Assembly (NCBI RefSeq): GCF_004360225.1
Contig: NZ_SNUA01000023.1
Location: 1-50,893, forward strand
DNA from: Alcanivorax sp. 24
GTDB taxonomy: Bacteria > Pseudomonadota > Gammaproteobacteria > Pseudomonadales > Alcanivoracaceae
Direction: 5' to 3'
Length of the DNA stretch: 50,893 bases
The notes beneath the pieces are model-generated. The model was not told where the DNA came from. It ran no database searches and was given only the letters and a program-made list of their open reading frames with translations. Positions 199-41,489 of this stretch are shown here, piece by piece. How positions within the stretch are numbered: position 1 is the stretch's first letter; every line of letters starts with the position of its first letter. The position numbers and the translations under genes were made by a program.

Positions 199-465
199 AT
201 GAAGAAGTCTCGATTTTCCGACAGTCAGATAGTGGCGATTCTGAAGCAGCACGAAGCTGGGGTTCCGGTGGCGGAGTTGTCCCGTGAACACAACGTGAGT
301 ACGGCGCTGATCTATCAGTGGCGGTCGAAGTTTGGCGGCATGGACGCGTCGCTGATGAAACGGCTGAAGGAGTTGGAGGCCGAGAACGCCCGTCTGAAGA
401 AGATGTATGCGGAAGAACGGCTCAAAGCCGAGCTGCGCCAGGAGGCCCTGGAGGGAAAGCTGTAA
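199..465 (+). CDS. IS3-family transposase OrfA
   Basis: This 88-residue protein begins MKKSRFSDSQIVAILKQ, the standard opening of IS3 OrfA proteins (HTH_Tnp_1 family). It has a helix-turn-helix around residues 10-45 (VAELSREHNVSTALIYQWR) and a leucine-zipper-like helix at about 50-85 (LKRLKELEAENARLKKMY pattern). OrfA binds the terminal repeats. Fused to OrfB by frameshifting it forms the full transposase. ATG 199 is preceded by GGAGCG. The frame ends at TAA 463-465, two codons after a slippery heptamer. The in-frame extension back to 157 lies inside the terminal repeat and was not used. Confidence 0.9.
   Translation: MKKSRFSDSQIVAILKQHEAGVPVAELSREHNVSTALIYQWRSKFGGMDASLMKRLKELEAENARLKKMYAEERLKAELRQEALEGKL
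453..459 (+). other. Predicted -1 ribosomal frameshift site GGGAAAG
   Basis: The orfA codons GAG-GGA-AAG-CTG-TAA place the heptamer G GGA AAG in the X XXY YYZ phasing that permits simultaneous -1 slippage. A shift here moves translation from orfA into the frame of orfB, which is open from 459 to 1283. IS3-family elements generally make their OrfAB transposase this way, most often on A-rich heptamers. Here the signal is the last possible one before the orfA stop. A downstream stem could form between GGCC at about 466-469 and GGCC at about 488-491 but looks weak. Confidence 0.6.
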
Positions 466-15297: not shown

Positions 15298-15432
15298 ATT
15301 AAAGGCAAAAAGGCTGCAACCGGGCGTGTTTTTGCACCCCCTCGAGCCCGCCAAGACGAACCCCTGCAAAATCAGGATAATGGCGCTCATCCAAGCCCCC
15401 GAGCGTCAAACTCCCCAACCCGGATCCCTCCC

Positions 15433-17637: not shown

Positions 17638-17766
17638 GTGTTGGGGGGCTAAGGGGAGAATATGCCTTTGGCCCATGAATCGATGCCAGGCTGACGGCAT
17701 GTCGAACTCCATCGGCGCCATTCGACTAACCTGGACAACAGGTTGTTCGAATCAATGGAGATGACA

Positions 17767-26527: not shown

Positions 26528-27601
26528 CTACTCCGCCCCTAAATAGCGGGTCACCACACCACGCCAACCTTCATCGTTTAAAATGCCCAGCAAGGCCTGG
26601 TCCAATGGCTCGCGGAGCGGAGACCCATTGGCCACGGCAATGGCGTAACTTTCTTCCCGCGCGAGCTGTGGCAGGACCAGTACCTCGTTTTCCTGGTTCT
26701 GGCGCAGCAAGTAACGCATTACCGGAGCGTCATGGACCACCGCATCAACGCGCCCTTGCGCCACGGCTTGCATCGCGTGTGCGATGTTCGGATAAGGCCG
26801 ATAAGCAATGCCTTGATTGTCGAGCCAGTGAGAGGCACTGGTGCCGTCGACGGTTCCAACTTTAACCCGTGGCAGGTCCGCGACGCTGGAAACCCGGGTT
26901 TGCAGTTGATTAACCGTAACGCTGGAGGCAATGGCGGCGGTAAAACCGGATATGGTGATGATGCTGACAAACATCCAGATCAGGCCGATGACCCGGCCGG
27001 CCGGAGTGATTGGCGCTTTATCGCCGTAACCCACGGTGGTCATGGTGACCGCCGACCACCAAAAGCCGCTGCCAATGCCTTCACGGATGCTGCCACCGAA
27101 CTGTTCAGGGTTGCGGTGGCGCTCCAACAGCCAGACCACGACGCCAACTGCCAGCAAGACCAATACCAGCGCGGTAACCGCGGAGAGGAATTTCCAACTG
27201 AACAGGCCTTGCAGCGTCGTCAGCCACCCGGAGGGACTGCTGGGCGTGGCGATGCCCAGGCCGGCACGAAACATGGGTTGAGTGAAGTCCAAACGCCGTT
27301 CCCGATCGGCGGTCACACTGATGGCCCCGATAGCCACATCGGCCTGGCCTTGCTCCACGGCTTCGAGCATTTCCGACACGCTTGGGTATGGGCGCAACTG
27401 GTAGTCCTGCCCCAGTTGACCGGCCAGTTGATGCCATAAATCGACACTGATACCGGTCCAGTGGCCTTCCTCCTGATAGCTGAAGGGCGGAGCCGATTTT
27501 ACCGCCACGGTGAGTGGTTCGGCATGCGTCAGGCCGCTGATCAGCAGGCACACGACGGCGATCAAAAGAGGTGATGGGTGGGTGCGTTCCTGATATGGCA
27601 T
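26528..27601 (-). CDS. GluR0-like ligand-gated potassium channel
   Basis: This 357-residue protein has a signal peptide (LLIAVVCLLISGLTHA) and a periplasmic amino-acid-binding-type domain split in two (about 29-125 and 245-355; SBP_bac_3, with EPLTVAVKSAPPFSY and ITADRERRLDFT-like SVTADRERRLDFTQP). A two-helix pore is inserted between the halves. Its filter T188-TVGYGD is that of potassium channels. This architecture defines prokaryotic ionotropic glutamate receptors such as GluR0, in which ligand binding in the periplasm gates K+ flux. The ligand is unknown. GGGAGGAAAGG before ATG 27601 fixes the start and removes 43 arginine-rich upstream codons. Confidence 0.9.
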   Translation of the reverse strand: MPYQERTHPSPLLIAVVCLLISGLTHAEPLTVAVKSAPPFSYQEEGHWTGISVDLWHQLAGQLGQDYQLRPYPSVSEMLEAVEQGQADVAIGAISVTADRERRLDFTQPMFRAGLGIATPSSPSGWLTTLQGLFSWKFLSAVTALVLVLLAVGVVVWLLERHRNPEQFGGSIREGIGSGFWWSAVTMTTVGYGDKAPITPAGRVIGLIWMFVSIITISGFTAAIASSVTVNQLQTRVSSVADLPRVKVGTVDGTSASHWLDNQGIAYRPYPNIAHAMQAVAQGRVDAVVHDAPVMRYLLRQNQENEVLVLPQLAREESYAIAVANGSPLREPLDQALLGILNDEGWRGVVTRYLGAE

Positions 27602-27909
27602 CCTTTCCTCCCGGTGGATGTCGGCTACGCCCAACAACGGCCACGGGCGCGTATCGTGTTTTTTTGCGTCGGGTTCAGGGTAGCGGTCTCTTCGCCGGCG
27701 CACCAGCAGGGCGGGAGAGGCGCGACGCAAAGTTCGGATGGGAAGGTCGATCTTGTTTTAGAGAGTCGAGGAAAAATGGGCTTTTCTGGTTATAGTGATG
27801 ATTGCAAAAGAATCTGAACCGCTGTTACTCGCGGAGTTGTTGCTGCTCCGTTCGGGGGGTATTTGATAGGGGGACATGCTTGAGCGGAAAAGTGAAAGAG
27901 AGGTGAAAC
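27602..27909 (+). other. Intergenic region between the divergent channel and VOC genes
   Basis: This 308-base gap holds no supportable gene. Short open frames at 27571-27817 lack ribosome sites and family resemblance. It must contain the promoters of both divergent genes. An AT-richer stretch at about 27750-27815 including TATAGTGAT is the likeliest promoter area, but no confident -35/-10 pair was found. Confidence 0.4.
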
Positions 27910-28296
27910 ATGATCGCCTATACCATGGTTGGCATCCGGGATCTGGATAGAGCGAGTGACTTCTATACCCCGTTGTTCCAGGAAATGGGGTTTAAGGTGT
28001 GCTGGCGGGACGAAGATTGCGTCTCCTATGGTGTCGTTGATGATTTGTCGGTCCCCCGGTTCTTTGTCGGCTACCCATTTGATGGCGAGGCGGCCTCGGT
28101 TGGCAATGGCACCATGACGGCGTTCCAGCTCCCGGAGCCCCGGAAAGTAGACCGGCTCTATGACATCGCTATGCGTCAGGGTGGGAGTGATGAAGGCAAG
28201 CCGGGATATCGACCTCGGTACGGAGAGGGGTTCTATGCCGCTTACGTGCGGGATCCGGATGGCAACAAGCTGGCTTTTATTGTCTATGACGGCTAA
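27910..28296 (+). CDS. VOC family (glyoxalase-like) protein
   Basis: This 128-residue vicinal-oxygen-chelate protein is built from two beta-alpha-beta-beta-beta units. It opens MVGIRDLDRASDFYTPLF and ends FYAAYVRDPDGNKLAFI, the terminal DPDGN-x-L/I-E-like strand of the fold. Such proteins bind a metal and act on small electrophiles or provide antibiotic resistance; the specific reaction is unknown. GAGAGGTGAAAC precedes ATG 27910. It is a single gene, preceded by the GluR0-like channel promoter region. Confidence 0.82.
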   Translation: MIAYTMVGIRDLDRASDFYTPLFQEMGFKVCWRDEDCVSYGVVDDLSVPRFFVGYPFDGEAASVGNGTMTAFQLPEPRKVDRLYDIAMRQGGSDEGKPGYRPRYGEGFYAAYVRDPDGNKLAFIVYDG

Positions 28297-28447
28297 TCGG
28301 CTTGAGCACTACCTTCCGTCTGGAAAACGCCGTTGACACGGGAGGAGATTTGGCAGAATCAGGCAAGGGGGATGTCTTGCCGTTCTCCAGGGTTTATGTT
28401 GGCATGCTACACGTCAACCCACTTTGGTTAATCGTGAGAGCAGTCCA

Positions 28448-29317
28448 ATGACCGACGACACCTATACGCCTCCGAAAGTCTGGCAATGGGAACCCGGCAA
28501 CGGCGGCAAGTTCGCCAACATCAACCGGCCCATCGCCGGTGCCACCCATGACAAAGAACTACCGGTGGGCAAGCACCCATTGCAACTCTACTCCCTGGCC
28601 ACGCCCAATGGCGTCAAGGTCACGGTGATGCTGGAGGAGTTGCTGGCCCTGGGGCATACGGGGGCGGAGTATGACGCCTGGCTGATCAATATCGGTGAAG
28701 GCGATCAATTCGGCAGCGGCTTCGTGGAAATCAATCCGAATTCCAAGATTCCCGCCATGGTGGATCACAGCGTGGACCCGCCGCGGCGTGTTTTTGAAAC
28801 CGCCTCCATTGTCCTGTATTTGGCGGAGAAATTCGGCGCTCTGATACCCAAGGAGCAGGGGGGCCGCACCGAGTGTATGAACTGGCTGTTCTGGCAGCAG
28901 GGCGCGGCGCCTTTCCTGGGCGGTGGTTTCGGCCATTTTTATGCCTATGCCCCGGAGAAGTATCGCTACCCCATCGATCGCTACACCATGGAAGTGAAAC
29001 GCCAACTCGACGTGTTGGATCGCCACCTGGCGGAGAACACTTATCTGGCCGGTGATGAATATTCCATCGCGGATGTGGCCACCTGGCCCTGGTACGGACA
29101 ACTGGTATTGGGACGTTTGTACGATGCGGCCGAATTCCTGGACGTCGGGTCGTACAAAAACGTGGCCCGTTGGGCCCAGCAAATCGACGCCCGTCCGGCG
29201 GTGAGCCGTGGCCGCATGGTGAACCGGACTTTCGGTAAACCGGAAACCCAGCTCCGTGAGCGCCACGATGCCAGCGATTTCGACACCCGCACCCAGGACA
29301 AAATTGAGGCGCCCTGA
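28448..29317 (+). CDS. yghU: YghU-like glutathione-dependent disulfide-bond oxidoreductase
   Basis: This 289-residue Nu-class GST is essentially the length of E. coli YghU. It has an N-terminal extension (TPPKVWQWEPGNGGKFANIN) and the active-site motif LATPNGVKVTVMLEE, where Thr-Pro-Asn replaces the classical Tyr/Ser. The NPNSKIPAMVD cis-proline loop and FETASIVLYLAEK follow. The C-terminal domain carries GDEYSIADVATWPWYG. The enzyme binds two glutathiones and reduces disulfides and organic hydroperoxides. ATG 28448 is preferred to the in-frame 28424 because it begins the conserved N-terminus. Confidence 0.9.
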   Translation: MTDDTYTPPKVWQWEPGNGGKFANINRPIAGATHDKELPVGKHPLQLYSLATPNGVKVTVMLEELLALGHTGAEYDAWLINIGEGDQFGSGFVEINPNSKIPAMVDHSVDPPRRVFETASIVLYLAEKFGALIPKEQGGRTECMNWLFWQQGAAPFLGGGFGHFYAYAPEKYRYPIDRYTMEVKRQLDVLDRHLAENTYLAGDEYSIADVATWPWYGQLVLGRLYDAAEFLDVGSYKNVARWAQQIDARPAVSRGRMVNRTFGKPETQLRERHDASDFDTRTQDKIEAP

Positions 29318-29343
29318 GGTCGATTGCAAAGAGCGTTGGGGGC

Positions 29344-30015
29344 ATGAAACAACGAAAGGCATTGCTCCAGCGAATTGCGGCGGTCATTACCAATAAAATG
29401 AACGGCGCAACCCTGCGTGTGGCCGTGGACGGTGCGGACGGGGCGGGGAAGAGCACCTTCGCGGATGAGTTATGGCGGATGTTGCGCGCGGATGAAATCA
29501 GGGTAATCCGCGCATCCGTCGATGGCTTCCATAACCCGGAGGTCGTTCGTTACCGCAGGGGACGCTATTCTCCGGAAGGTTTTTATTACGATTCCTATGA
29601 TTACGAGGCCCTGAAGACGCTTCTTCTGGAACCATTGGCGCCCTCGGGAAGCGGGATCTACGTGACGGCTGCGTTCAACCATGGGATGGATCGGCCGGTG
29701 GTTGTGTCCCCGCGGAAGGCGAGTCGGGGAGACGTGCTTCTCTTTGATGGTATTTTCCTGCAGCGGCCGGAGTTGAGCGGATACTGGGATTTTTCCATCT
29801 ATCTGGATATTCGCAGTGATACTTCCGTGTCCCGTTTGCAGCAACGGGATGGAGGCCCCGGTACCTCGGATCACCCTCTGAATCGCCGCTACCGGGATGG
29901 GCAGGTCATTTACCGGCAGCGATGTCATCCCATGGAAAAGGCGCATATCATCGTGGACAACAATGAACCGACAAGGCCGTTTATCATTAAGTGGAATCAA
30001 GGTTCACTGAATTGA
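29344..30015 (+). CDS. Uridine kinase-like P-loop kinase
   Basis: This 223-residue protein has the Walker A motif DGADGAGKST at about 29-38. SVDGFHNPEVVRYRRGRYSPEGFYYDSYDYEAL resembles the substrate lid region of uridine/phosphoribulokinase-type enzymes, and DVLLFDGIFLQRPEL contains the Walker B-like aspartate. It likely phosphorylates a nucleoside or small sugar-like substrate, but is not a close match to Udk itself. It starts 26 bases after the yghU-like gene and may be co-transcribed. Confidence 0.8.
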   Translation: MKQRKALLQRIAAVITNKMNGATLRVAVDGADGAGKSTFADELWRMLRADEIRVIRASVDGFHNPEVVRYRRGRYSPEGFYYDSYDYEALKTLLLEPLAPSGSGIYVTAAFNHGMDRPVVVSPRKASRGDVLLFDGIFLQRPELSGYWDFSIYLDIRSDTSVSRLQQRDGGPGTSDHPLNRRYRDGQVIYRQRCHPMEKAHIIVDNNEPTRPFIIKWNQGSLN

Positions 30016-30101
30016 AAAAGTAATCCATGACCCTGGTAAGGTGAAAAAACACATCTTCACGTCCTGCGGCGTGGCTAACCTCTCCGGAGGAGCGAACCAA
30101 T

Positions 30102-30293
30102 ATGCCTCTTTCAGTGGATACTCTGAGCGAAATACGAACCTTGCTACGCGGGTTTGATGAGCGCGATGACATCATTGGGATCCTGTGTGAAGAGATGTAT
30201 GAGCCCGGGGAGCTGAATGAACAGGAGGTGCAATGGGACGGCACCTTCGTCCATCGCATCTTCATTCCCGATATGGGTTGGAAGCGTCGATAA
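30102..30293 (+). CDS. Small hypothetical protein
   Basis: This is a 63-residue acidic protein (LSEIRTLLRGFDERDDIIG, then ILCEEMYEPGELNEQEVQWD) with a basic end GWKRR. GGAGGAGCG lies 10-15 bases before ATG 30102, a strong ribosome site that supports it being real. No family is recognised. It ends nine bases from the convergent OsmC gene. Confidence 0.55.
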   Translation: MPLSVDTLSEIRTLLRGFDERDDIIGILCEEMYEPGELNEQEVQWDGTFVHRIFIPDMGWKRR

Positions 30294-30302
30294 ACTCGCC
30301 CG

Positions 30303-30689
30303 TTACTGCCATTTGCTTTCGATGAGGGTGCCCCGTCCCACGGTCTTGGTCACCGGGGTTTTGGCGGCGATCTCCAGCAGCCGTTGACGTTGCTCGTCGG
30401 TCAGCTCCCTGCTGCAGGAAAGTGTCCGGTCGATGAACTCATTACCGTCCTCGTCGCGATGAAAATGCAGGTAGACGCTGATCTCCCCCAATTCCCAGCC
30501 CTTGCGGTCGGCGTACATACGCAGGGTGATGGAAGTGCAGGCACCAAGACTGGAAAGCAGCAACTCGTAGGGATTGGGGCCGCTGTCCTCGCCGCCCAGA
30601 TCGGAGCCTTCATCGGCTTGAAAACGATGGTGACGGGCGTGGATATGCTGCTGGTAATGAGTGTCGCTGTATACCGATACCTTGGCCAT
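30303..30689 (-). CDS. OsmC family peroxidase-like protein
   Basis: This 128-residue OsmC/Ohr-fold protein has the conserved [29 protein letters not shown] segment holding the peroxidatic cysteine. However, the usual resolving CPV cysteine appears as [26 protein letters not shown], where the second site lacks the cysteine (KTPVTK in place of xCPVxx). It may therefore not be a classical two-cysteine hydroperoxide reductase. GGAGACCGCA places the start at 30689 (MAKVSVYSD). It is the second OsmC domain in the window. Confidence 0.82.
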
Positions 30690-30850
30690 TGCGGTCTCCA
30701 TGACGGTGAGAAACAGAATGCCTACTGTGCCACAGCCGCGCCGGGATCGGGAATGCCCCTCTTTGGAGAGAGGGGCGGCGCGGTCAGGGTGGATAGAGCG
30801 GAGACGCGGGTAAGCGGATAACGCGGATAAGTAAATGGAAGCGCGCTGCG

Positions 30851-31483
30851 TCAGACCGCGTGGGCGGCCAGGTCATCGTCGATCTGGCGTGCCTTGATGG
30901 CCGCGGGGCGCTCCATCAGATTGGCGCAGTAGCGTTCGAACACCGGCCGCTTTTCGATGGTGCCAACAGCCATCTCGTAACCCAGATAAGCGCCAGCGAG
31001 CAGATCGGCGGCGGTGAATTGCTCCCCAACCAAATAATCCCTCCAGCGTAATTCGTTTTCCAACGTATTGAGTACCCGGTCCAGGGTGCCGTAGCCAGCG
31101 GTGACCGCTTTCTTGGCATCGTCGCCGACCTCGAAACCCAGCACATGGTTGGTGCAGGCCGCGTCAAACGGGCCCGCGATAAAAAACAGCCAACGATAGT
31201 AAGCGCCTCGTTCCCGGCTGGTCACAGCCGGAGCCAGTCCGGCTTGTGGGAAGGCATCGGCCAGATAGGTGCAAATCGCCGAGACCTCGGTGATCACGGT
31301 GTCGCCATGCACCAGCGCGGGGACTTTCCCCATCGGGTTGATCGCCAGATAGTCCGCGTCTCTCATCCCCAAACCGAATGACAAAACATGGGTCCGGTAG
31401 GGCTGGTTCACTTCTTCAAGCATCCAGCGCGCCACTCGGGCCCGAGACATGGGATTGGTGTAGAAAACCAGATCCTGACTCAT
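30851..31483 (-). CDS. Glutathione S-transferase family protein
   Basis: This 210-residue GST has an N-terminal thioredoxin fold ([21 protein letters not shown]; catalytic Ser/Arg region NPMSRAR), the [29 protein letters not shown] glutathione site and a helical C-domain with [18 protein letters not shown]. It likely detoxifies electrophiles. GAGAGGATTGC lies before ATG 31483. It is a monocistronic gene between OsmC and the DUF2894 locus. Confidence 0.85.
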
Positions 31484-31577
31484 GCAATCCTCTCCGTGTC
31501 ATTGTTGATTGGAGAGCGAGTGTATCGGGGGCTCCTGTCAGATAATGGCAGCAGTGCCCCGTGGTTGGCATGAGCCG

Positions 31578-32321
31578 TCAGCCCTTCTTCGCCACCTTCT
31601 CCAGCGCCAGCAGGGTGTCCATATAACTGACGAAATGGTTCAGATAGTCCGGTGACAGGCCGCGCAGGGTTTCCACACTGCGGGTGACCAGGCGGTGTGC
31701 GTTTAGCGGGCCGGCGTCGCCGGGGGACTGGGCAATGGCGTGGTCAATGCGTTTCTGAGTATGCAGGCGGGCGCGGGTGGCGCGCAGTTGACGCAGAGCC
31801 TTGAGCTCCCGCTGCGATGTCAGGGGGCGGACATTGCGACGGCCTTTGCCGGCGGTCTTCTGGAACAGGTTGGGATGAGCCCTGAGCAACGCATCCAAAG
31901 GGGTGTTGTCGGGGCCTTCGTCCTCGATATCGCTGTCGTGCAGCGCTTCCAGTAACGCCACCAGCGGTGAGGGCGAACGTCGTGTCTGTTGCTCGGCGAG
32001 GCGCTGGAAGGCGCGCAGGTCACCCCTTTCGAAGAGATGATCCAACTGGGCCCGTGTGGCGTCATCGACGGCGTGGTAAGGCAAGGTGGCGCGCTGGGCC
32101 CGGGCCTTGTCCCTGGCTTCCTCGAAGCGCGCCTGATAGTCCGTCAGCGCCTGCTGTAATTTTTCCCGCTGCGCCGGTGACGGCGCCCGATGGCTCCCGG
32201 CCAGGCGTTGGGCCAGGGTGTCCAGATAACGGAAGCGCACCGGGTCGTAGCGGTCGGCGTGGTCGTCACGCAGCCGGGCAAGGCGCTGCAGCGGTGTGAG
32301 TGTCCCGGTGACGTCACTCAC
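31578..32321 (-). CDS. DUF2894 family protein, last gene of the motor-like operon
   Basis: This 247-residue protein is soluble, very basic and helical, with no signal peptide. Conserved-looking parts are the N-terminal GTLTPLQRLARLRDDHADRY, a middle EALHDSDIEDEG acidic patch and the C-terminal LNAHRLVTRSVETLRGLSPDYLNHFVSYMDTLLALE. From memory, DUF2894 proteins occur next to OmpA-like and DUF802/DUF3348 genes; their function is unknown. The start is GTG 32321, which overlaps the end of the OmpA-like gene by eight bases. The longer open frame to 32426 overlaps that gene much more. High basicity and conserved neighbours suggest a cytoplasmic partner, perhaps nucleic-acid or tail binding; this is inference. 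Confidence 0.78.
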   Translation of the reverse strand: MSDVTGTLTPLQRLARLRDDHADRYDPVRFRYLDTLAQRLAGSHRAPSPAQREKLQQALTDYQARFEEARDKARAQRATLPYHAVDDATRAQLDHLFERGDLRAFQRLAEQQTRRSPSPLVALLEALHDSDIEDEGPDNTPLDALLRAHPNLFQKTAGKGRRNVRPLTSQRELKALRQLRATRARLHTQKRIDHAIAQSPGDAGPLNAHRLVTRSVETLRGLSPDYLNHFVSYMDTLLALEKVAKKG

Positions 32322-32955
32322 CGTTCTCGGCCTGGTTGTCCTGGCGCGGTACGGTGGTGATCTCCACCCGGCGATTCTTGGCGCGGGACGCTTCGCCCTG
32401 GTTCGGAACCACCGGCTGATTGTCACCGAAAGCAGCGGCGAAGATGCGGTCCGCCGGCATGCCCTGGGCGATCAGCGTGCGGGTAACGGTGAGCGCACGT
32501 TGTGCGGAAAGTCCCCAGTTATCCTGATAACGCGGATTCCCCTTCTGAATCGCCAGATCGTCGGTGAAGCCGCTCACCATCAGCAATTCATTATGCTCGC
32601 TGAGATAAGCGCGTAGCGGTTCCACCAGGCTGCTCAGCAGCTTCTCGCCCTCGGGTTGCAAGACATCGGAGTTGAGCGCGAACAAGACACTGCCGCTGAT
32701 ACCGATGCGGCCGTTGTGGAAGGTGATACGGCCGCTTGAAAGCGGATCCCGCAGCGCGTCCTCCAGCGCGATACGGCGCTGCTCCTCGACCTGGCGGCGG
32801 GCTTTTTCCTGTTGCAGGGACTGGCTCAATTCCAATTGGATACCGATCACCCACACGGTGATCAGCACGAAGATGCCCACCAGCGCCGCCATCAGATCGG
32901 AGAAGATGGCCCATACCGGCGTGGCCTGGGCCTGACGGTCGTGCAGCTCATCCAT
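32314..32955 (-). CDS. MotB/ZorB-like OmpA-family inner membrane protein
   Basis: This 213-residue protein has a short cytoplasmic start and one membrane helix (about 14-40, WAIFSDLMAALVGIFVLITVW). A conserved Asp20 lies in the helix at the position of the ion-binding Asp of MotB and ZorB. A coiled linker (LQQEKARRQVEEQRR) and an OmpA/peptidoglycan-binding domain (about 90-205; FTDDLAIQ, NWGLSAQRALTVTRTLI, RAKNRRVEIT) follow. It should be the anchored stator partner of the upstream MotA/ExbB-like protein. Its ATG shares one base with the upstream TGA, and GGAG lies seven bases before. Zorya ZorB has the same order of parts. Confidence 0.88.
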   Translation of the reverse strand: MDELHDRQAQATPVWAIFSDLMAALVGIFVLITVWVIGIQLELSQSLQQEKARRQVEEQRRIALEDALRDPLSSGRITFHNGRIGISGSVLFALNSDVLQPEGEKLLSSLVEPLRAYLSEHNELLMVSGFTDDLAIQKGNPRYQDNWGLSAQRALTVTRTLIAQGMPADRIFAAAFGDNQPVVPNQGEASRAKNRRVEITTVPRQDNQAENGE

Positions 32956-35474
32956 CAGCCGGCTCCGTTGCCGTTGGTGGCCGACTGCTGGCGCACCGCG
33001 CCAAGCGCTTCCAGCACATCCTTCTGCGAGGTCATGCTCAGGTCGATGACTTCCCGCGCCTGTTCCACGTAATAAGCCAGCTGTTCATCACTGCGCGTGG
33101 TGGCTTGTTCCAGGGCGGCCTCCACCTTTTGCAGATGATCCACGAGCTTGTCGTTGGCGTCGCTGAACAGCTGCACGGCGACGGAGAAGGCTTCGCTCAG
33201 ACTGGCCACTTCATGGGCGCCGCCGGTAACGTCGGAGGCCACTTCATCCAGTTTGCGGCTTTGCTCTTCCACTTGCCGGGAGAAGGTGTCGCTGACGCTC
33301 TTGAGAACGTCGCCGGAATCACGGATCAGGCTTTCCACCGCCTCGCGCTGGGCGCTGGCGCCGTCACGCTGGGCCGCCAGCAGGGTTTCCAGCTCCGCCA
33401 TGATGCGCCGGCGCTCCTCCAGCATATCGTTATCGCGCTCGCTGCTTCGGGACATTTCCTCGCGCAGTTGGCTGATCACCTCGGCGGCGGCCTTGGGCGT
33501 TTCCGAAGCGGTTTCGATGAGACGCGTCATGGGGGCTTCCAGGGCCGCGCCCAGGTCACCGAGATGGCGGGTGACCGTGGTTTCCAGTTCCGCCAGTCGC
33601 GCGGTGGCGGTTTCGCCACGTTGCGCTTCTTCGTTACGCAGCGTGGACAGGGCCTGGCCAGTGTCCGTTACCAGTTTCTCCAGGCCTTCACGCTGCTGTG
33701 CAATCAGGGTCTCGGCGGCGTTCTGGAATTGCTCATTGTGGCTTTGCAGAGCCTGGATGATGTTGTCAATCAGGCCGGCGGCGGAGCGCTGCTGCTGATC
33801 CAGGCCATGACGCCACTGTTCGGCGGTTTGTTCGGTGGTGGCCTGGAAGCGCTCGGCCAGTGTCGCCAGTTGCTGTTCGCCGGTGCTTTGCAGCTGCTGG
33901 TGGTGTTCGCGAGTCTGTTCCAGCAGCGTGTTGCTATGCCGGTGGAAGGTATCGTTGTGGTCCTTCAGAGCGGCGCCGAGGCTATCCGACAATTGGGTGT
34001 TGGCGTGTTGCTGTTCACTCAGGCCATCGCGCCATTGCTCCGCGGCACGCTCGGTGGTGGTCTGGAAGTGCTCCGCCAGGGCGGTCAGTTGCGCCTCACT
34101 GGCCTGCTGTAACTGTTGATGATGATCGCGGGCCTGGACCAGCAGGAGCTCGCTTTGTTCGCGGAAGCGCTCGCCGTGGGCTTGCAGTGCGTCGGCGACC
34201 TGTTCGGCCAGTTGGCGGCTCTGTTGCCGCTGCTCGCCGAGACCGGTTTGCCAGGCCTGGGCGGCGTGCTCGGTGGTGGCCTGGAAGTGCTCGGCCAGCT
34301 CCGACAGCTGCGCCTTGCCGGTTTCACGCAGTTGCTGATGATGCTCCCGGGTTTGCGCCAGCAGTTCGCTGCTGTGCTGCTCGAAGCGGCTGTTGTGGGC
34401 CTGGAGCGCGGCGTCGATGTCGGCGGCCAGTTTGCCGGTGCTTTGTTGTTGTTCGGCGAGCCCTTGTTGCCAGTGCCGGGCGGCTTGTTCGGTGGTGGCT
34501 TGGAAGCGTTCCGCCAGGGTGCCGAGCTGACGCTCGCTGATCTCGCTCAGGGTCTGATGGGTGCTCTCCGCCTGTTGTCCCAGACGGGCCATGGCCGCTT
34601 CCACGATCGGGCGGGTGCTCTCCGCGGCGATGCGGCCACTGTCCGCCAGGCTTTGCTTCAGGGTGTCGCTGACCGAGTGGGCCAGCTGCTGATAGTGGCC
34701 GCTGACGTTGTCATGGAATTGCTGCTGGTTCCGCGTCAGCGCGCCGCTGACCTGCTCGCTCATGTGTTCCATGCGTTCGGCCAGATGGCCGAGTTGGGCA
34801 ACCACTTCGGGGAAAGCGGCGGACTGCTCTCGCAACGCCTGGTAAGTATCGCGTTGTTGCTGGCCGATTGAGAACGCGCGCAGATCCGTGGCGATATGAG
34901 TGTCCAGCTCACGGCCGGTCAGAATCCGGTCCCGGCGGCTCAGGGCGGCGGCCAGACCGAGCATGGCGGAACTGGCGACACCGGCGATGGAAGTACCGAA
35001 CGCCAGGCTCATGCCGCTGATGGGAGCGGCCAGGGCGTTACGGATAGCGTGCAGTTCGCTGCCGCCTTCCAGCGCGGTAACGGCACCGCGCAAGGTCACG
35101 ATCATACCAATGAAGGTGCCGAGCAGGCCGAGCATGACCAGCAAACCGGAGAGATAAGGCGTCAGCATCGGACCGGGCAGAGCGACCGGTTCACCTTCCA
35201 CCCGGCGGCGCACCGCGTTGCGCAGGGAATCGGGCAGGCCAGCGATCCACTGGCCGAGACAGTCCGGGCTGTTCGGCAATTGCTCCAGACCGTGGCGCAA
35301 TTGAGCGGTGGCGCGGCGGAATTGCCGCAGCTCCAGAAAGCCCAGGCCGTACACCAGTGCGATCAGCAGGATGGCGGTTAGCGCCACCAGGTCGGTACCG
35401 AGAAAGCCCAGGCCCACCCAGATCACCGTGATGGCGCCCAGGATGAAGGTCAGCGCGAAAAGAAAACGTGTCAT
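32955..35474 (-). CDS. MotA/ExbB-like protein with long coiled-coil tail (DUF802-type repeats)
   Basis: This 839-residue protein has four membrane helices at about 4-25, 29-48, 106-130 and 152-178. The last two form the MotA/TolQ/ExbB signature (LLGTFIGMIVTLRG and ISGMSLAFGTSIAGVASS). A cytoplasmic tail of about 650 residues follows, almost entirely helical and glutamine-rich, including four tandem 73-residue repeats (320-611). Each repeat begins LAE-[RH]-FQ-[AT]-TTE and ends with a REHHQQL-like stretch. From memory the repeat is Pfam DUF802. The architecture parallels ZorA, whose tail relays an ion-driven motor to cytoplasmic effectors. Start ATG 35474 overlaps the DUF3348 stop (ATGA); the 902-codon open frame is longer only by reading into that gene. 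Confidence 0.85.
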   Translation of the reverse strand: MTRFLFALTFILGAITVIWVGLGFLGTDLVALTAILLIALVYGLGFLELRQFRRATAQLRHGLEQLPNSPDCLGQWIAGLPDSLRNAVRRRVEGEPVALPGPMLTPYLSGLLVMLGLLGTFIGMIVTLRGAVTALEGGSELHAIRNALAAPISGMSLAFGTSIAGVASSAMLGLAAALSRRDRILTGRELDTHIATDLRAFSIGQQQRDTYQALREQSAAFPEVVAQLGHLAERMEHMSEQVSGALTRNQQQFHDNVSGHYQQLAHSVSDTLKQSLADSGRIAAESTRPIVEAAMARLGQQAESTHQTLSEISERQLGTLAERFQATTEQAARHWQQGLAEQQQSTGKLAADIDAALQAHNSRFEQHSSELLAQTREHHQQLRETGKAQLSELAEHFQATTEHAAQAWQTGLGEQRQQSRQLAEQVADALQAHGERFREQSELLLVQARDHHQQLQQASEAQLTALAEHFQTTTERAAEQWRDGLSEQQHANTQLSDSLGAALKDHNDTFHRHSNTLLEQTREHHQQLQSTGEQQLATLAERFQATTEQTAEQWRHGLDQQQRSAAGLIDNIIQALQSHNEQFQNAAETLIAQQREGLEKLVTDTGQALSTLRNEEAQRGETATARLAELETTVTRHLGDLGAALEAPMTRLIETASETPKAAAEVISQLREEMSRSSERDNDMLEERRRIMAELETLLAAQRDGASAQREAVESLIRDSGDVLKSVSDTFSRQVEEQSRKLDEVASDVTGGAHEVASLSEAFSVAVQLFSDANDKLVDHLQKVEAALEQATTRSDEQLAYYVEQAREVIDLSMTSQKDVLEALGAVRQQSATNGNGAG
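33642..34517 (-). repeat. Four tandem 219-bp coding repeats (73 residues each)
   Basis: The units are 34299-34517, 34080-34298, 33861-34079 and 33642-33860, each exactly 73 codons. Units one to three share the LAEHFQATTE start, a W at position 16 with HWQQGL-like context, an L..AL.-H-N/G-.RF motif in the middle and LL.Q.REHHQQL near the end; the fourth degenerates after position 55. The period equals about ten heptads plus three residues, expected of a regular helical rod. The exact unit length, with no indels, suggests unequal crossing over set the tail length. Confidence 0.85.
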
Positions 35475-36232
35475 TGCGGGAGTGGTTCCTCGTGATTCAA
35501 TGCGTCCAGCAGGCCTTGCACCGGTTCCAAACGGGTTTCCAGTTCCGCCAGCAGCAGCGTCTGCATTTCCTGGTGAAACTGATGTAACCAGCCCCCGGGT
35601 GTCACCCAGGCGTCGATCGGATCGGGCTGGTCTGCCGAGTGTTGATTGCGGTGCGCCCGCCAAAGGGAGCGAAAGCGTTTGCCCAGTACCATCGGTATGG
35701 CGCCGAAGCAGTAGCGGCCATAGCTGGCCAGGGTGTTGTCGAACACCGTGTCGAGCACGGCGAGCTGGGCGAGTGTGTGATTCTGGGCGGCAAAACCGTC
35801 GCGCAGACGTTGCCGCAGATACTGAATGGCGGTGATCAGTTGTCTCTGGTGGGACAGGTAAAAACGTTCATAGGGCTTGAACACCGGTGGCGTCTCGGTG
35901 ATCCGCGGCAAGCGCAGCTTCACCTTGGCGTCACCGGGCTCGAAACTCAGGGTGATGCCGTTGATGAGCGTGTCACGGGTTTGGGCGAAGTCGGCCCGGA
36001 GCCGCTCCGCCAGCCCTTCTTTGGGGTGGAATGGCCCCATGGGCTGGTACTTATAGGCGGCGTCCAGTGCGATGGTGTCGGACAGATCGAACAGCCGGCC
36101 CATACGTTCCGCGAAGCAGGTGTGGGCATCGAGGCCGGCGCCATTGCCCAGCGCGGCCACCAGCTGTACCAGTCTGGCGCTGGGAGGGGCCGGTTGCGCT
36201 TTTTTTTGCGTCCTGTTCGTGCTGTTGCTCAT
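35471..36232 (-). CDS. DUF3348 family protein, first gene of the motor-like operon
   Basis: This 253-residue soluble protein has a basic, proline-rich N-terminus (RTQKKAQPAPPSARLVQ). Helical segments contain DAHTCFAERMGRLFDLSDT, the conserved LDAAYKYQP and ASYGRYCFGAIPMVLGKRF, and a C-terminal WLHQFHQEMQTLLLAELETRLEP. It matches DUF3348, a family of unknown function that, from memory, co-occurs with DUF802 and DUF2894. No signal peptide or membrane segment is present. Its TGA overlaps the next ATG by four bases. The ribosome site is weak, while a promoter-like sequence and a leader hairpin lie upstream. Confidence 0.8.
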   Translation of the reverse strand: MSNSTNRTQKKAQPAPPSARLVQLVAALGNGAGLDAHTCFAERMGRLFDLSDTIALDAAYKYQPMGPFHPKEGLAERLRADFAQTRDTLINGITLSFEPGDAKVKLRLPRITETPPVFKPYERFYLSHQRQLITAIQYLRQRLRDGFAAQNHTLAQLAVLDTVFDNTLASYGRYCFGAIPMVLGKRFRSLWRAHRNQHSADQPDPIDAWVTPGGWLHQFHQEMQTLLLAELETRLEPVQGLLDALNHEEPLPQ

Positions 36233-36266
36233 GGGCCGCCGTGGCTAGGAAAAAGGTATGACCATG

Positions 36267-36285
36267 CCGTCGCCTGACGCGACGG
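36267..36285 (-). promoter_or_regulatory. Leader hairpin upstream of the DUF3348 operon
   Basis: CCGTCGC (36267-36273) and GCGACGG (36279-36285) form a perfect seven-base-pair stem with a five-base loop. It lies between the predicted -10 box and the first start codon of the motor-like operon, in the transcribed leader if the promoter call is right. It could modulate translation or mRNA stability. Confidence 0.4.
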
Positions 36286-36295
36286 GAAACCGCCC

Positions 36296-36324
36296 ATTCT
36301 AATCAACTGCGGCGGCCCCACCAA
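36296..36324 (-). promoter_or_regulatory. Predicted sigma-70 promoter of the DUF3348 operon
   Basis: On the minus strand TTGGTG (36319-36324) and TAGAAT (36296-36301) are separated by 17 bases. The -10 box matches consensus at five of six positions, the -35 box at three of six. It is the only good candidate in the 121-base gap between the CoA transferase stop and the operon's first ATG, 64 bases from that ATG. Confidence 0.45.
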
Positions 36325-36353
36325 TCCTGCGGATGCCTGAGTCGGTTGGCGGG

Positions 36354-37565
36354 TCAGCCGGGATCGTTGGCGGCGGGCATGGTGACCACGCCCCGGGCCA
36401 GAAGAGCGTCGATGGCGGTGTCGGCGAAGCCGGCCTCCCGTAGCACGTCCCGGCTGTCGCCGCCGAGGCGCGGCGCCGGCCGGTCCGGCCGCGTCGGAGC
36501 ATCAATGAAGCGTAACGGGTGGCGGGTGGCGAGCAGCTTCCCTTCGCTGGGGTGATCCACCTGTTGAAAGAAATCCACTGCCCGCAAATGCGGGTCGGCG
36601 AGCAAGTCTTCCAGTGTGTTTACCGGGCCGCAGGGAATATCCCGCTCCTTCAGCGCGGTCAGCCAGTACTCGTTGCCATGGGATGGCATGCACTCGGCGA
36701 CGACCTGATACAGCTCGCCAATGCGCTCGCTGCGACGGGCCGGGTGCATGACCCATTCCGCCCGGCCCAGATCATCCCGACCCACCAGGCCGAGAAACCG
36801 TTGCCAGTGGCGGGAGGTGTAGGGCAGCACCGCGATGTAGCCGTCGGCGGTTTGATAGGGGCGCCGATAGGGGGTCATCAAGCGGTCGTAGCGCAGCGAG
36901 CCCCGCGGTGGCTCGAAGACATGGCCGGCAAGGTGTTCGGCCAGCAGGAAAGAAACCAGGCTTTCAAACATCGGTGCTTCCACCGCACCGCCCTGGCCAG
37001 TGCGTTCCCGCTGCAACAGAGCCGCGGCGATGCCGACAGTGGCGTACAGGCCGGCCACCTTGTCCGCCAGGACTGTTGGTGCGAAGGCGGGCGGGGAGTC
37101 GGGGGTGTGATTCAGCGAAGCCAGTCCGCTGATCGCCTGCATGATGTCGTCGTAGGCAGGGTCGTCGGCGTAAGGGCCGTCGCCACCGAATCCCACCGCG
37201 GCGCAATACACCAGGCGTGGGTTGAGAGGGCCGAGGGTGTCATGGTCGATGCCCAGTTTTCTGGCGGCGGCGGGGCGGATGTTGTGCAACAGCACATCCG
37301 CCTGGGCCACCAACCGGTGCAGTGTGGCCTGTCCCTGATCGGTTTTCAGGTCCAGGACCAGGGACCGTTTATTGCGATTCAGATTGAGAAAGCCGGCGCC
37401 CATGCCCGGGTGCCGGGCCGGTGCGGCGGCGCGGAAAATATCCCCCTCCGGGGATTCCACCTTGATCACTTCGGCGCCCAGGTCGGCAAGAAGCTGGGAA
37501 GCGAAAGGCCCCAACACCACGGTGCTCAGATCCAGCACCGTTATCCCTTTAAGCAACTCGAACAT
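36354..37565 (-). CDS. CaiB/BaiF family (class III) CoA transferase
   Basis: This 403-residue class III CoA transferase opens VLDLSTVVLGPFASQLLADLGAEVIKVESPEGD, with LNRNKRSLVLDLK, the catalytic-Asp region ADDPAYDDIMQAISGLASL and a C-terminal EREIPCGPVN-like ERDIPCGPVNTLEDLLADP. These enzymes move CoA from an acyl-CoA donor to a carboxylic acid. Divergent from the IclR regulator and facing the TRAP-ACAD genes, it likely activates the imported substrate. GAGGAAATACC precedes ATG 37565. Confidence 0.88.
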   Translation of the reverse strand: MFELLKGITVLDLSTVVLGPFASQLLADLGAEVIKVESPEGDIFRAAAPARHPGMGAGFLNLNRNKRSLVLDLKTDQGQATLHRLVAQADVLLHNIRPAAARKLGIDHDTLGPLNPRLVYCAAVGFGGDGPYADDPAYDDIMQAISGLASLNHTPDSPPAFAPTVLADKVAGLYATVGIAAALLQRERTGQGGAVEAPMFESLVSFLLAEHLAGHVFEPPRGSLRYDRLMTPYRRPYQTADGYIAVLPYTSRHWQRFLGLVGRDDLGRAEWVMHPARRSERIGELYQVVAECMPSHGNEYWLTALKERDIPCGPVNTLEDLLADPHLRAVDFFQQVDHPSEGKLLATRHPLRFIDAPTRPDRPAPRLGGDSRDVLREAGFADTAIDALLARGVVTMPAANDPG

Positions 37566-37740
37566 GGTATTTCCTCACTGCATTGCCGATGTTCGGGAGG
37601 CGCCTTCCCCGTCATCGGCGGAATGATTTTTTTATTCAGTCTTGCATGGTGGTGTTTATTCGTGCAACGCTATTTTGAATCAATGGTTCACAGGGTGAAC
37701 CTTTGCTGAAGGCAAACCCTGTTCAAGCAGAGCGAGGCGC

Positions 37741-38499
37741 ATGGGATACGCACCGGTATCGGCGGTCCTGAAGGGACTGAAAGTGTTGGAGGTGGTGAAT
37801 CGTCTGGGGCCGGCGAGTCTCCGTGACATCACCGAGGCCACCGGCTTGCCCAAGGCGTCCACTCTGAGACTTCTGGATACCCTGCAGCACGCCGGTTATG
37901 TCTCGGTAATGAACGATAGCCGCCGCTATATCGTCACCGCCAGGGTCTTGTCCCTGTCCAATAATTTCCATCCGGACGACGCGCTTCTCGCGGCCGCCGT
38001 TCCGGTATTGAAAGCGCTGCGTGATAAAACCGGCTGGCCGTCGGACCTGGGCATTTATCAGCACGGCAAGATGGTGATCGCGGATACCAACCGGCAACCC
38101 GGTGCGTTTTCGATGAACCGTTCGGTGGGGTCACGGGTTTCCATGACCACCACTTCGCTGGGCAAAGTCTACATGGCGTTCTGTCCGGAGCCGGAACGGG
38201 AAGAAATTTTTCTTCACTTGTCACGGCTTGATGACCCGGATGAGAACAGCGCTCTCAGAGGCGAAGCCGTCGAGCGTCTGATAAAGAAAATTCGCAAGCA
38301 GGGTTATGCCACCAGCGATCAGGAACAAGGCAAGAGCATACGGGCGGTGTCGGTGCCGGTGATGCTTGGTGACCGGGTGGCGTGTTCGTTCAACGTCATT
38401 GTGCCGGCTCAGGTGATGTCGATGGCGCAGGTGGTAACCGACTACGTGCCGCTGATCAGCGCCGCGGCCCGGGAGATAGAACAGCGTATTCAGGGATAG
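37741..38499 (+). CDS. IclR family transcriptional regulator
   Basis: This 252-residue protein has an N-terminal winged helix-turn-helix (LRDITEATGLPKASTLRLLDTL, about 22-45) and a C-terminal IclR effector-binding GAF-like domain (about 75-250, with TTTSLGKVYMAF and AVSVPVMLGDRVACSFNV). It probably controls the divergent CoA transferase and the downstream TRAP and dehydrogenase genes in response to the substrate. The 175-base gap to the CoA transferase must hold its operator. GAGCGAGGCGC precedes ATG 37741. Confidence 0.9.
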   Translation: MGYAPVSAVLKGLKVLEVVNRLGPASLRDITEATGLPKASTLRLLDTLQHAGYVSVMNDSRRYIVTARVLSLSNNFHPDDALLAAAVPVLKALRDKTGWPSDLGIYQHGKMVIADTNRQPGAFSMNRSVGSRVSMTTTSLGKVYMAFCPEPEREEIFLHLSRLDDPDENSALRGEAVERLIKKIRKQGYATSDQEQGKSIRAVSVPVMLGDRVACSFNVIVPAQVMSMAQVVTDYVPLISAAAREIEQRIQG

Positions 38500-38605
38500 G
38501 CCGGTTCCATCCGGTCATTGCCATGGCGAAGGAGAGGTAACGTGATCGAGGCCCTGCCGTTTCAGGTCCGGCCGAATCAAAATAATGCAGAATAGAGGTG
38601 ACGTA

Positions 38606-39643
38606 ATGAAAATAATAACGTCGATTATGCGAAAACAGGTCCCGCTCTGGGGCTTGATGCTGACTCTGCTGTCCGCGCCCTGGGCCCAGGCGCGGGACAT
38701 GACCCTGGCGGATTCTTTTCCATTGGACCACTACTTGTCCAAGGAAGGCACGGTGTACTGGATGAACCGGGTCACCGAACTGACCGGAGGTGATCTCGCG
38801 TTCCAGCATTATCCGGCGGAACAGATCGCCAAGGCTTCTGAGATCATGCGCCGGGTCCAGGACGGGGTGGTGGATGTGGGGTATGTGGGCATCGGTTATG
38901 TCAGTGATCGCATGCCCTTGAATGGCGCCACCATGTTGCCCGGTGTGGTCCGTGATTCAACCCGAGCAAGCCAGGCGTACTGGTCTGAACTGAAAGACCC
39001 GGACAGTGTTTATCGCAAGGAATTCGAAAAGAATGGTCTGGTCCCGGTGTTCGCGGTACTGCTGCCACCCTACCAGGTGGTACTGAACAAGCCGGCCATA
39101 GACTCGACCAGTGACTTCAAGGGATTGAATTTGCGTTCCTCCGGCAGTCTGGACCTGGCGGTGCAGGCATTGGGAGCGTCACCGGTCTCCATGGCGGCGC
39201 CGGATATCTATCTGGCTTTGCAGCGGGGAACGCTGGACGGCACGCTGTTGCCGGTGACGAGTATCACTCCCTATCGGGTCGATGAGGTGACCTCCAGCGT
39301 ATCCACCAATGGTGCCTTCGGCAGTTTCGCCATCACCGTCGCCATGAATGCCGAGCGCTACGAGGCACTTGATGATGCTCGGAAACATGCCATTCGGCAG
39401 GCCGGGGACGAGACCGTCCGGCATTTGAGCGAGTACGAGGCGGAGGCGGTCAGTCAGCTTCTGACGCAATTCAAGGACCAGGGTATCCAGGTTTACGCCT
39501 TTTCCGATCCCACCCTGAAAACCATCGAGCAGCGTCTTGACGGTGTCCGCGAGCAATGGGCCAGACGTATGGAGAAACGCGGTCTGGATGGCCAGCAAGC
39601 GTTGCAGGCCATGGAGCATGCTCTCGAACAGACTGGCCGGTGA
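38606..39643 (+). CDS. dctP: TRAP transporter solute-binding protein (DctP family)
   Basis: This 345-residue protein has a signal peptide (LWGLMLTLLSAPWAQA). The TRAP binding-protein core follows, with WMNRVTELTGGDLAFQHYPAEQIAKASEIMRRVQDGVVDVG and LRSSGSLDLAVQALGASPVSM. It contains the conserved arginine region NLRSSGS, which coordinates the ligand carboxylate. It delivers a small organic acid to the membrane DctQM pair. GAGGTGACGTA precedes ATG 38606, so the in-frame ATG 38585 is less likely. Five bases separate it from dctQ. Confidence 0.9.
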   Translation: MKIITSIMRKQVPLWGLMLTLLSAPWAQARDMTLADSFPLDHYLSKEGTVYWMNRVTELTGGDLAFQHYPAEQIAKASEIMRRVQDGVVDVGYVGIGYVSDRMPLNGATMLPGVVRDSTRASQAYWSELKDPDSVYRKEFEKNGLVPVFAVLLPPYQVVLNKPAIDSTSDFKGLNLRSSGSLDLAVQALGASPVSMAAPDIYLALQRGTLDGTLLPVTSITPYRVDEVTSSVSTNGAFGSFAITVAMNAERYEALDDARKHAIRQAGDETVRHLSEYEAEAVSQLLTQFKDQGIQVYAFSDPTLKTIEQRLDGVREQWARRMEKRGLDGQQALQAMEHALEQTGR

Positions 39644-39648
39644 CGCCG

Positions 39649-40185
39649 ATGTCCGGTTCTCTCAAATTGCTGGAGCGGGGACTGGCGGTTATTGCCGTGG
39701 GCGCGGTACTGGCGATGATGTTGCTGGTCAGTCTGGATGTGATCGCGCGCTACCTGTTCAAAGCACCACTGACCTTCCAGTACAGCCTGACCGAGGATTA
39801 CCTGATGGTCATCATGGTGGCACTGGCGTTGCCATGGGCGGAACGGCGAGGCGCCTTCATTCGCTTGACGCCGTTTCATCGTCTCATGAGCCCTGGGGTA
39901 CGCCGCGGCTTGTACGCGCTCAATAATCTGATAATCGCTCTGATGCTGTTGGCGATGACCTGGTATGCCGGTGAGCGGGTATGGGTTGACTGGTGGGAAC
40001 AGCGGGTGATCTTCGGTGTGATCGACTGGCCGGTATGGCTGTCCCACGTCTGGGTCCCGATAGGAACCCTGGTTCTCTCCCTGAGACTGTTCACCAACGC
40101 CTGCCTGTATCTTCTGGGAAAAGCGGAAGTGCCATCGCCGCCATCCCTGGACGAGATGGGTGAAGGCGAGGAGGCGTTGCGATGA
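39649..40185 (+). CDS. dctQ: TRAP transporter small membrane subunit (DctQ)
   Basis: This 178-residue protein has four membrane helices, including the family signature LVSLDVIARYLFKAPLTFQYSLTEDYLM and PWAERRGAFIRL. It forms the TRAP carrier complex with DctM. ATG 39649 comes five bases after the dctP stop and its own stop overlaps the dctM start by four bases, so translation is coupled. Confidence 0.9.
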   Translation: MSGSLKLLERGLAVIAVGAVLAMMLLVSLDVIARYLFKAPLTFQYSLTEDYLMVIMVALALPWAERRGAFIRLTPFHRLMSPGVRRGLYALNNLIIALMLLAMTWYAGERVWVDWWEQRVIFGVIDWPVWLSHVWVPIGTLVLSLRLFTNACLYLLGKAEVPSPPSLDEMGEGEEALR

Positions 40186-41468
40186 TCATCATGATCGGAG
40201 TCGGTTTGCTCATCGTGCTGCTATTGATGGAAATGCCGATCGCCTTCGCCATGATGGTGGCGGCCACGGTGGGGTTGTGGCTGGTGGGCGGAGAGCTGAT
40301 GGTGCACAGCTACCTGGCGGATGCATTTCATAACGTCACCGCTTCCTACACCATGCTGACCATTCCCATGTTCGTTTTGATGGCTCAGTACATGGCCCAG
40401 AGTGGCATGGCCAGGGATATTATTGCCTGCAGCGACACCTGGTTGCGGCGCTTCAACGGTGGTTTGGGCATGGCCTGTGTGTTCGCGAGCGCCTTCATGG
40501 CGGCGATCATTGGCTCCAGCACCGCCTCCTGCGCCACCATGTCCTCGGCGGCCTTTCCATCCATGCGTGAGAGCGGTTACGACCGCCGTATCTCGGTGGG
40601 CATAATCGCCATCGCCGGCACTCTGGCGATTATGATCCCGCCGAGCATCGTGCTGATTATTTACGGCATCCTGACACAGCAATCCGTGGGCAAGTTACTG
40701 ATCGCGGGTCTTGTGCCGGGCCTGCTCACCGCCGCCGGCTACATCCTCACCATCTGGGGCTTGAGTAAACGGCGTCCGGATCTGGTACCCAGGCCAACCG
40801 CCTTCAATATGCGCGAGGCGATGGGGGCGTTACGTCCGGTCTGGCCCGCCATGCTGCTGATGGTGGTGACTATTGGCGGCTTGTACAGCGGTCTGGCCAC
40901 GCCAACGGAAATCGGCGCTGTGGGCTCGCTGGCGGCCTTGGTGATCGTGCTGCTGATGCGGCGTATCGACAAACGGCGTTTCGCCAGCGCCATGACCGAA
41001 ACACTGGGCACCACGGTGATGATCATCACGATCATCATCGGAGCCATGATGTTCGGCTACTTTCTCACCCTGACGCAGGCGACCCAATCCCTCATTGCCA
41101 TGATTAACGACGCCAACCTGTCACCCTGGGCGGTGCTGTTGACCCTGGTGGTGATCTATCTGGTGCTGGGCATGCTCATGGATCAGATGGCGATTCTGGT
41201 GTTGACCGTGCCGGTGACCTTCGCGCTGATCACCCAGTTGGGCTTCGATGGCATCTGGTATGGCATCGTCATAACGAAGACCGTGGAGATTGGTCTGGTG
41301 ACGCCGCCGCTCGGACTCAATGTGTTTATCACCTCCGGTATTACCCGGGTGCCGGTGGGTGAGTGCTTCCGGGGGGTGGCGCCCTTCGTTCTGGTGGATT
41401 TGCTGATTCTCGGACTGCTCCTGGCGTTTCCGGAAATCAGCTTGTTCCTGCCCGGCCTGATGAAATAG
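40182..41468 (+). CDS. dctM: TRAP transporter large permease (DctM)
   Basis: This 428-residue protein has about 12 membrane helices. It carries the DctM signature GSSTASCATMSSAAFPSMRESGYDRR and PPSIVLIIYGILTQQSVGKL, and a terminal QLGFDGIWYGI...LVTPPLGLNVFI segment. It is the Na+- or H+-coupled transport subunit. The full length and conserved motifs indicate a functional carrier. The acyl-CoA dehydrogenase gene starts 21 bases later. Confidence 0.92.
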   Translation: MIIMIGVGLLIVLLLMEMPIAFAMMVAATVGLWLVGGELMVHSYLADAFHNVTASYTMLTIPMFVLMAQYMAQSGMARDIIACSDTWLRRFNGGLGMACVFASAFMAAIIGSSTASCATMSSAAFPSMRESGYDRRISVGIIAIAGTLAIMIPPSIVLIIYGILTQQSVGKLLIAGLVPGLLTAAGYILTIWGLSKRRPDLVPRPTAFNMREAMGALRPVWPAMLLMVVTIGGLYSGLATPTEIGAVGSLAALVIVLLMRRIDKRRFASAMTETLGTTVMIITIIIGAMMFGYFLTLTQATQSLIAMINDANLSPWAVLLTLVVIYLVLGMLMDQMAILVLTVPVTFALITQLGFDGIWYGIVITKTVEIGLVTPPLGLNVFITSGITRVPVGECFRGVAPFVLVDLLILGLLLAFPEISLFLPGLMK

Positions 41469-41489
41469 TGAATGACATAGGAAACCGTG

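Follow-up and report, generated by a model that had tools for sequence, protein, structure and literature searches.

A likely Zorya type III anti-phage operon in Alcanivorax, its inheritance within two genera and the rod-and-tip anatomy of its ZorA

A four-gene operon on the minus strand of the window (the whole of contig C23, 50,893 nucleotides, from a genome of 4.76 Mb) is quite likely a complete Zorya type III anti-phage system, in which a motor would act through the tip of ZorA and two DUF proteins. The genes run head to tail in the order DUF3348, zorA3, zorB3 and DUF2894, with overlaps of 4, 1 and 8 bases. The initial annotation had presented the operon as undescribed; that label is rejected, because models in PADLOC match all four proteins and a published definition of Zorya type III, named in 2021, fits the operon. 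The kind of system is thus already known, and the additions made here are its inheritance pattern and the rod-and-tip anatomy of ZorA.

For each of the four proteins, the best match in PADLOC-DB was a Zorya type III model: ZorG3 for the DUF3348 protein (PDLC00657; E-value 6.5e-102), ZorA3 (PDLC00648; 4.4e-270), ZorB3 (PDLC00651; 3.9e-105) and ZorF3 for the DUF2894 protein (PDLC00652; 1.1e-51). ZorA also matched the PADLOC type I ZorA model (3.4e-13). Pfam recognized DUF3348 (PF11828; 1.5e-81), DUF802 in four stretches of ZorA (1.5e-46), an OmpA domain in ZorB (PF00691; 3.7e-17) and DUF2894 (PF11445; 3.5e-59), while no match of ZorA to the Pfam MotA_ExbB model was reported at E<=1. In NCBIfam, the anti-phage ZorA models scored far under their cut-offs (22.7 bits versus 190, and 22.3 versus 100), and the sole name over its cut-off for ZorB, among the best 25 of 41 matches, was the ‘hypothetical protein' PRK09040. 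As NCBIfam names neither subunit as Zorya, the type III assignment rests on PADLOC together with alignment.

According to the passages of Payne 2021 that deal with these systems, 6,401 pairs of motor genes with DUF3348 and DUF2894 genes at their flanks were named Zorya type III, and in the type III activity test reported there a system from Stenotrophomonas nitritireducens, placed in E. coli, made at least one of the tested phages plaque less well (PMC8565338); a passage of Mariano 2025 restates the type III definition (PMC11890865). The family models and these two papers agree with the earlier proposal of a Zorya-like motor that is driven by ions and has a tail of the ZorA type, perhaps for phage defence, and likewise with its view that two DUF proteins stand in place of the usual Zorya effectors. 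The two DUF proteins carry swapped names in these sources: DUF3348 is ZorG in PADLOC-DB and ZorF in the passages seen of Payne 2021 and Mariano 2025 (PMC8565338, PMC11890865), and DUF2894 is ZorF in the former and ZorG in the latter two; the DUF names are used here. Type III seems to be the least studied Zorya type: a literature search on its DUF families led to Payne 2021 and Mariano 2025, and a further one found no published Zorya work, phage experiments included, on Alcanivorax.

All four genes lie on the minus strand. The DUF3348 gene (253 amino acids) occupies 35471..36232 and is followed by zorA3 (32955..35474, with its ATG at 35474), which encodes a MotA/ExbB-like motor subunit of 839 amino acids with a long cytoplasmic tail. 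The third gene, zorB3 (32314..32955; 213 amino acids), encodes a MotB-like N-terminal helix plus an OmpA-type peptidoglycan-binding domain, and the DUF2894 gene (31578..32321; 247 amino acids) begins with a GTG at 32321. Between the operon and the CoA-transferase gene upstream of it, also on the minus strand, lies a gap of 121 bases (36233..36353), in which no sigma-70-like site was found.

For comparison, 40 further loci were chosen by the presence of DUF3348, giving 41 systems with this one: 12 of the 12 other loci of its own genus, all 17 of the sister genus, both of those in genus g4 of the same family, four of the 87 of a third genus (g174), two of the seven of genus g154, and one each from three further genera. 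The four-gene set stood in identical order at all 40 loci thus picked, and the exact spacing of −4, −1 and −8 recurred in 27 of 32 systems of three genera, this operon counted and the starts being picked by script. The overlaps claimed at the outset are therefore real, by gene coordinates as well as by recurrence, and the arrangement is far beyond chance. That unrelated genes merely overlap here by accident or misannotation has a negligible probability, and is ruled out by the identical order at 40 of 40 loci and the tight overlaps in most of them.

The presumed ion path was conserved throughout. In the membrane motor core of ZorA (residues 1-240; 34755..35474), T120, T161 and S162 were identical in 41 of 41 systems, as was Asp20 of ZorB (codon at 32896..32898), the presumed ion-coupling aspartate. 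Invariant as well were G129, T131, D132 and R153 of the ZorB OmpA-like domain (residues 91-195; 32371..32685). The ion-path Thr/Ser and Asp residues align with those of the type I ZorAB of a sister-genus genome (G018), to which BLASTP gave 6e-11 for ZorA and 9e-11 for ZorB at 23-27% identity. ZorB also matched chain F of 8qyd (8e-7), a molecule labelled ‘Membrane protein' that we take to be E. coli ZorB, and a 96% identical ZorB occurs in records of A. xenomutans and A. balearicus. The ZorB-like helix with Asp20 and the OmpA domain, as first described, is thus present. Mean omega across five clades was 0.03-0.11 for ZorB and 0.05-0.17 for the ZorA core (0.015-0.035 for rpoB); moreover, it stayed below 1 throughout the genes and segments of the operon in all five clades, and the operon genes are under purifying selection.

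A MotA/MotB-like pair with an OmpA domain would also suit a stator for flagella or gliding, or an energiser of the ExbBD/TolQR type, and several MotB-type NCBIfam models did match ZorB under their cut-offs (among the best 25 of 41 matches). However, the scores of 896 bits for ZorA3 and 348 bits for ZorB3 are far above those reported for stator models, and this pair comes with a long tail and with DUF3348 and DUF2894 partners, none of which to our knowledge is a feature of stators; nor do we know of an OmpA domain in ExbD or TolR. Such a role is therefore very improbable.

The tail of ZorA consists of two parts that differ in conservation. Mean identity of the other 40 proteins to this ZorA was 66-77% over residues 81-200, 7-34% over residues 321-600 and 56-80% over residues 641-839. 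By the Pfam matches and this profile, residues 241-640 (33555..34754) form a rod of DUF802 repeats of variable length, with a period of 73 residues at the protein level, followed by a conserved distal tip (residues 641-839; 32958..33554); the mean identity of 7-48% in the rod, against 56-80% in the tip, is a low estimate, as gaps counted as mismatches and few of the compared ZorA proteins reach the length of this one. ZorA length ranged from 555 to 839 residues across the 41 systems. For example, the ZorA of genome G002 (766 residues) is exactly one repeat unit shorter than that of genome G001 and the present one (both 839), and is otherwise closely similar; no tandem repeat was found in zorA at the DNA level. 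The long tail expected for ZorA is borne out by the models, but it measures about 600 residues after residue 240 and not the 650 once claimed.

Within the tip, a signature at residues 794-810 (33045..33095) stood out by identity across the 41 systems, with R794, D796-L799, Y801-V803 and Q805-E808 invariant in all of them, and the last 200 residues showed a mean omega of 0.05-0.27 in the five clades. ZorA appears modular (a motor, 73-residue units that are gained or lost, and an invariant tip), so that the length of the rod would vary while the presumed docking tip stays constant. From its conservation, we propose the tip as a putative docking module for the DUF3348 and DUF2894 proteins.

The two DUF proteins themselves yielded few clues. 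DUF2894 is basic here, as had been noted for one of the pair, with a pI of 10.0 (range 4.8-11.4 in the 41 systems); DUF3348 is mildly basic (8.6; median 7.1 in the 41 systems). DUF2894 had the highest omega of the operon genes in each of the five clades (0.17-0.53), and that of DUF3348 was 0.12-0.29. Profile searches returned no credible solved relative for either protein, the best E-values being 0.02 and 0.12 over partial stretches. A kinship between DUF3348 and DUF2894 was rejected (hhalign probability 0.2). The structure models, each built from three near-identical sequences, were mostly helical, with a pLDDT of 48.6 for DUF3348 and of 63.9 for DUF2894, the latter good only over about the first 115 residues, and a fold search with the DUF2894 model gave nothing significant (best E 2.8). 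Given the absence of solved relatives and fold matches and the low confidence of the models, no effector activity was found for either protein; they may act on nucleic acid.

How widely the operon occurs, counted with DUF3348 as the marker, bears on a different reading: that of a resident envelope-maintenance or stress motor with a Tol-Pal- or Ton-like role, whose anti-phage effect in E. coli would be secondary. In its favour, DUF3348 was present in all 13 genomes of the own genus, all 17 of the sister genus and 87 of 91 of the third genus; rpoB was detected in 28 of the 30 genomes of the first two genera (29 of 32 searched), so that DUF3348, found in all 30, is no less complete. Presence in every examined genome of two genera is mildly surprising. 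Yet within the family DUF3348 was found in 32 of 46 genomes and three of eight genera (two of seven genomes in g4 and none of nine in the five other genera), in a sample of the class it occurred in 8 of 369 genomes, this one counted (6 of 272 genera), and even in the third genus it was missing from 3 of the 86 good genomes (83 positive). Genus g154, with 7 of 18 genomes, indicates that genus-wide presence is not a general rule. The absence from most relatives means that the operon is not generally needed, which argues against a maintenance role. Elsewhere, DUF3348 was recorded in 97 of 247 genomes of family f15 (19 of 54 genera) and 68 of 250 of family f110 (44 of 141 genera), lists that omit 130 and 162 negatives, respectively, and from which per-genus counts cannot be derived.

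Two other defence markers were counted alongside. Over its curated cut-off, hsdR was found in 4 of 13 genomes of the own genus, 8 of 17 of the sister genus, 16 of 46 of the family and 19 of 91 of the third genus; at E<=0.001 it rose to 32 of 46 in the family and 45 of 91 in the third genus, counts that probably include other helicases. The EH_Signature domain (ZorC) was found in 2 of 46 family genomes. As these two were the only controls, other defence genes might be genus-wide too.

The defence island for which the initial annotation had suggested looking was not found in this window: the ten chosen flanking proteins (26528 to 42692) belong to metabolic, transport, channel, regulatory or stress genes, none of the ten matched PADLOC at 1e-5, and neither ZorC nor ZorD was among them (EH_Signature had no match in genome G000). 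By comparison, the type I Zorya of G018 adjoins type I methyltransferase, specificity and restriction genes. A mobile or island cassette is the usual form in which Zorya occurs, though it does not define Zorya. Within the own, sister and third genera, the operon lacked the patchiness of such a cassette, but its presence was patchy between genera and within g154. Its genus-wide presence, its common setting and the lack of a defence gene among these ten flanking proteins are unlike a typical defence cassette.

ZorA had no match among 50,697 phage records, and a pattern scan with the ZorB alignment found no ZorB relative in viral contigs, both in line with a resident envelope motor. On plasmids, type III ZorB was found in 27 of 72,556 records at E<=1e-30, every one of at least 366 kb and 24 of them from Burkholderia, Paraburkholderia, Caballeronia or Cupriavidus; the type I query matched a single plasmid record, so these counts provide no contrast between types I and III.

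The setting and phylogeny of the operon point to long residence. Same-side flanking families were common to 71 of 78 pairs of loci in the own genus, 136 of 136 in the sister genus, the one pair of g4 and three of six in the third genus, the last drawn from four of its 87 positives, of which one locus had no common flank. In the own genus, a GST-family gene lies downstream at 11 of 13 loci, and an upstream gene is common to 9 of 13, being absent from the four-genome clade that contains this window. Furthermore, a tree of the four proteins from 29 genomes had 17 of 26 splits in common with the rpoB tree (over 500 label shuffles the mean was 0.2 and the maximum 2), and the correlation of 0.90 between Zorya and rpoB distances was reached by none of 2000 permutations. 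Three pairs of well-supported splits conflicted between the two trees, all in the sister genus and two of them involving G026, whose rpoB is truncated; the sister genus is not a single clade in the Zorya tree. Thus, for the own and sister genera, it is well supported that the operon reached each genus, or moved inside it, in the distant past and has been passed on mainly by descent ever since; in both, its behaviour is that of a resident, heritable device and not of a mobile cassette.

A setting common within each of these two genera, a tree resembling that of rpoB and omega below 1 would all suit an envelope motor, and the genus-wide inherited distribution lends some weight to the envelope maintenance raised at first as an alternative to defence. 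However, the setting differs by genus (a common flanking family in 8 of 598 between-genus pairs), vertical inheritance is equally possible for a defence system, and one type III system protected against phage according to a passage of Payne 2021 (PMC8565338). On balance, an envelope motor with merely secondary anti-phage effect is unlikely. A related idea can be put forward tentatively, and may well be wrong: in some genera type III, with its modular ZorA, would be a core inherited envelope-sensing motor, either an innate immunity that is rarely lost or an envelope machine that gave rise to defence. Among the matches listed by a literature search on core-genome or housekeeping Zorya there was no evident report on type III, which proves little.

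As a type III anti-phage system, the operon can be given a working model. From the solved type I and II complexes, we infer that five ZorA subunits would encircle a pair of ZorB helices within the inner membrane, with the OmpA domain of ZorB presumably binding peptidoglycan. An injecting phage would disturb the wall, ZorB would become engaged and the channel would open; ions might then cross by Asp20 and the Thr/Ser ring of ZorA, so that ZorA would turn. The rod could carry this motion to the conserved tip, which may recruit or activate both DUF proteins, the basic DUF2894 among them, perhaps close to DNA entering the cell. Passages of Mariano 2025 (PMC11890865) describe the flow of ions, the binding of peptidoglycan and the tail of ZorA as important in types I and II, and by analogy each may matter in type III.

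The present systems offer handles for studying the type: the operon is in every examined genome of two genera, the ZorA tip motif is identical in 41 of 41 systems, and natural ZorA variants exist that are one repeat apart. A normal function of the operon in the cell, if there is one, would link anti-phage motors to ordinary envelope machines.

Among known systems, MotAB/PomAB, ExbBD and TolQR are inner-membrane ion-driven A/B pairs, from which this operon differs by its long repeat tail, conserved tip and DUF3348 and DUF2894 partners. Zorya type II (ZorABE) has a ZorAB motor in common with it, whereas the operon genes here do not include ZorE. The likeness to Zorya type I (ZorABCD) extends to the aligned ion-path Thr/Ser and Asp residues, the long ZorA tail and the MotB/OmpA-like ZorB; however, this operon is without ZorC and ZorD, and its identity to the G018 proteins is 23-27%. 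With Zorya type III, all four genes match the models and the domains are the same, with no difference in kind.

Within the type III Zorya operon, three long open frames (335, 226 and 251 residues; 33105-34871, forward strand) run antisense to zorA, and these are most likely shadow frames of the GC-rich, repetitive zorA gene. Opposed frames also occur at 15406-17721 (reverse strand), where a 771-residue ORF, with no Pfam match at 1e-5, faces a 734-residue open frame at 15433-17637 on the other strand; either strand could code. Elsewhere in the window, the reverse-strand gene at 26528-27730 encodes a protein with Pfam SBP_bac_3, Lig_chan and Ion_trans_2 domains, in which the ion-channel segment is nested within the solute-binding domain, and the product looks like a prokaryotic glutamate-receptor-type channel. 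A matching ORF was found in 1 of the 40 other loci, most of which may end short of this position. Close to the contig end, an integrase core domain (rve) protein (318-1283, forward strand; Pfam) is probably an insertion-sequence transposase.

Among the compared genomes, contig C1 of G025 carries two DUF3348 matches of equal score (~40303 and ~3932073) near its opposite ends, which points to either a circular assembly left unclosed or a duplication; of the two, the comparison covered just the one at ~40303.

In the text of Payne 2021 (PMC8565338) and Mariano 2025 (PMC11890865), ZorF is DUF3348 and ZorG is DUF2894, whereas the PADLOC-DB models reverse these labels (DUF3348, ZorG; DUF2894, ZorF). 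The sister-genus genome G018 harbours both type I and type III Zorya: its type I region (L134; G018:C2:414000-433999) contains a complete zorABCD, adjoined by type I R-M genes and by two ORFs with matches to HEC-06/SspE-type models in their N-terminal portions.
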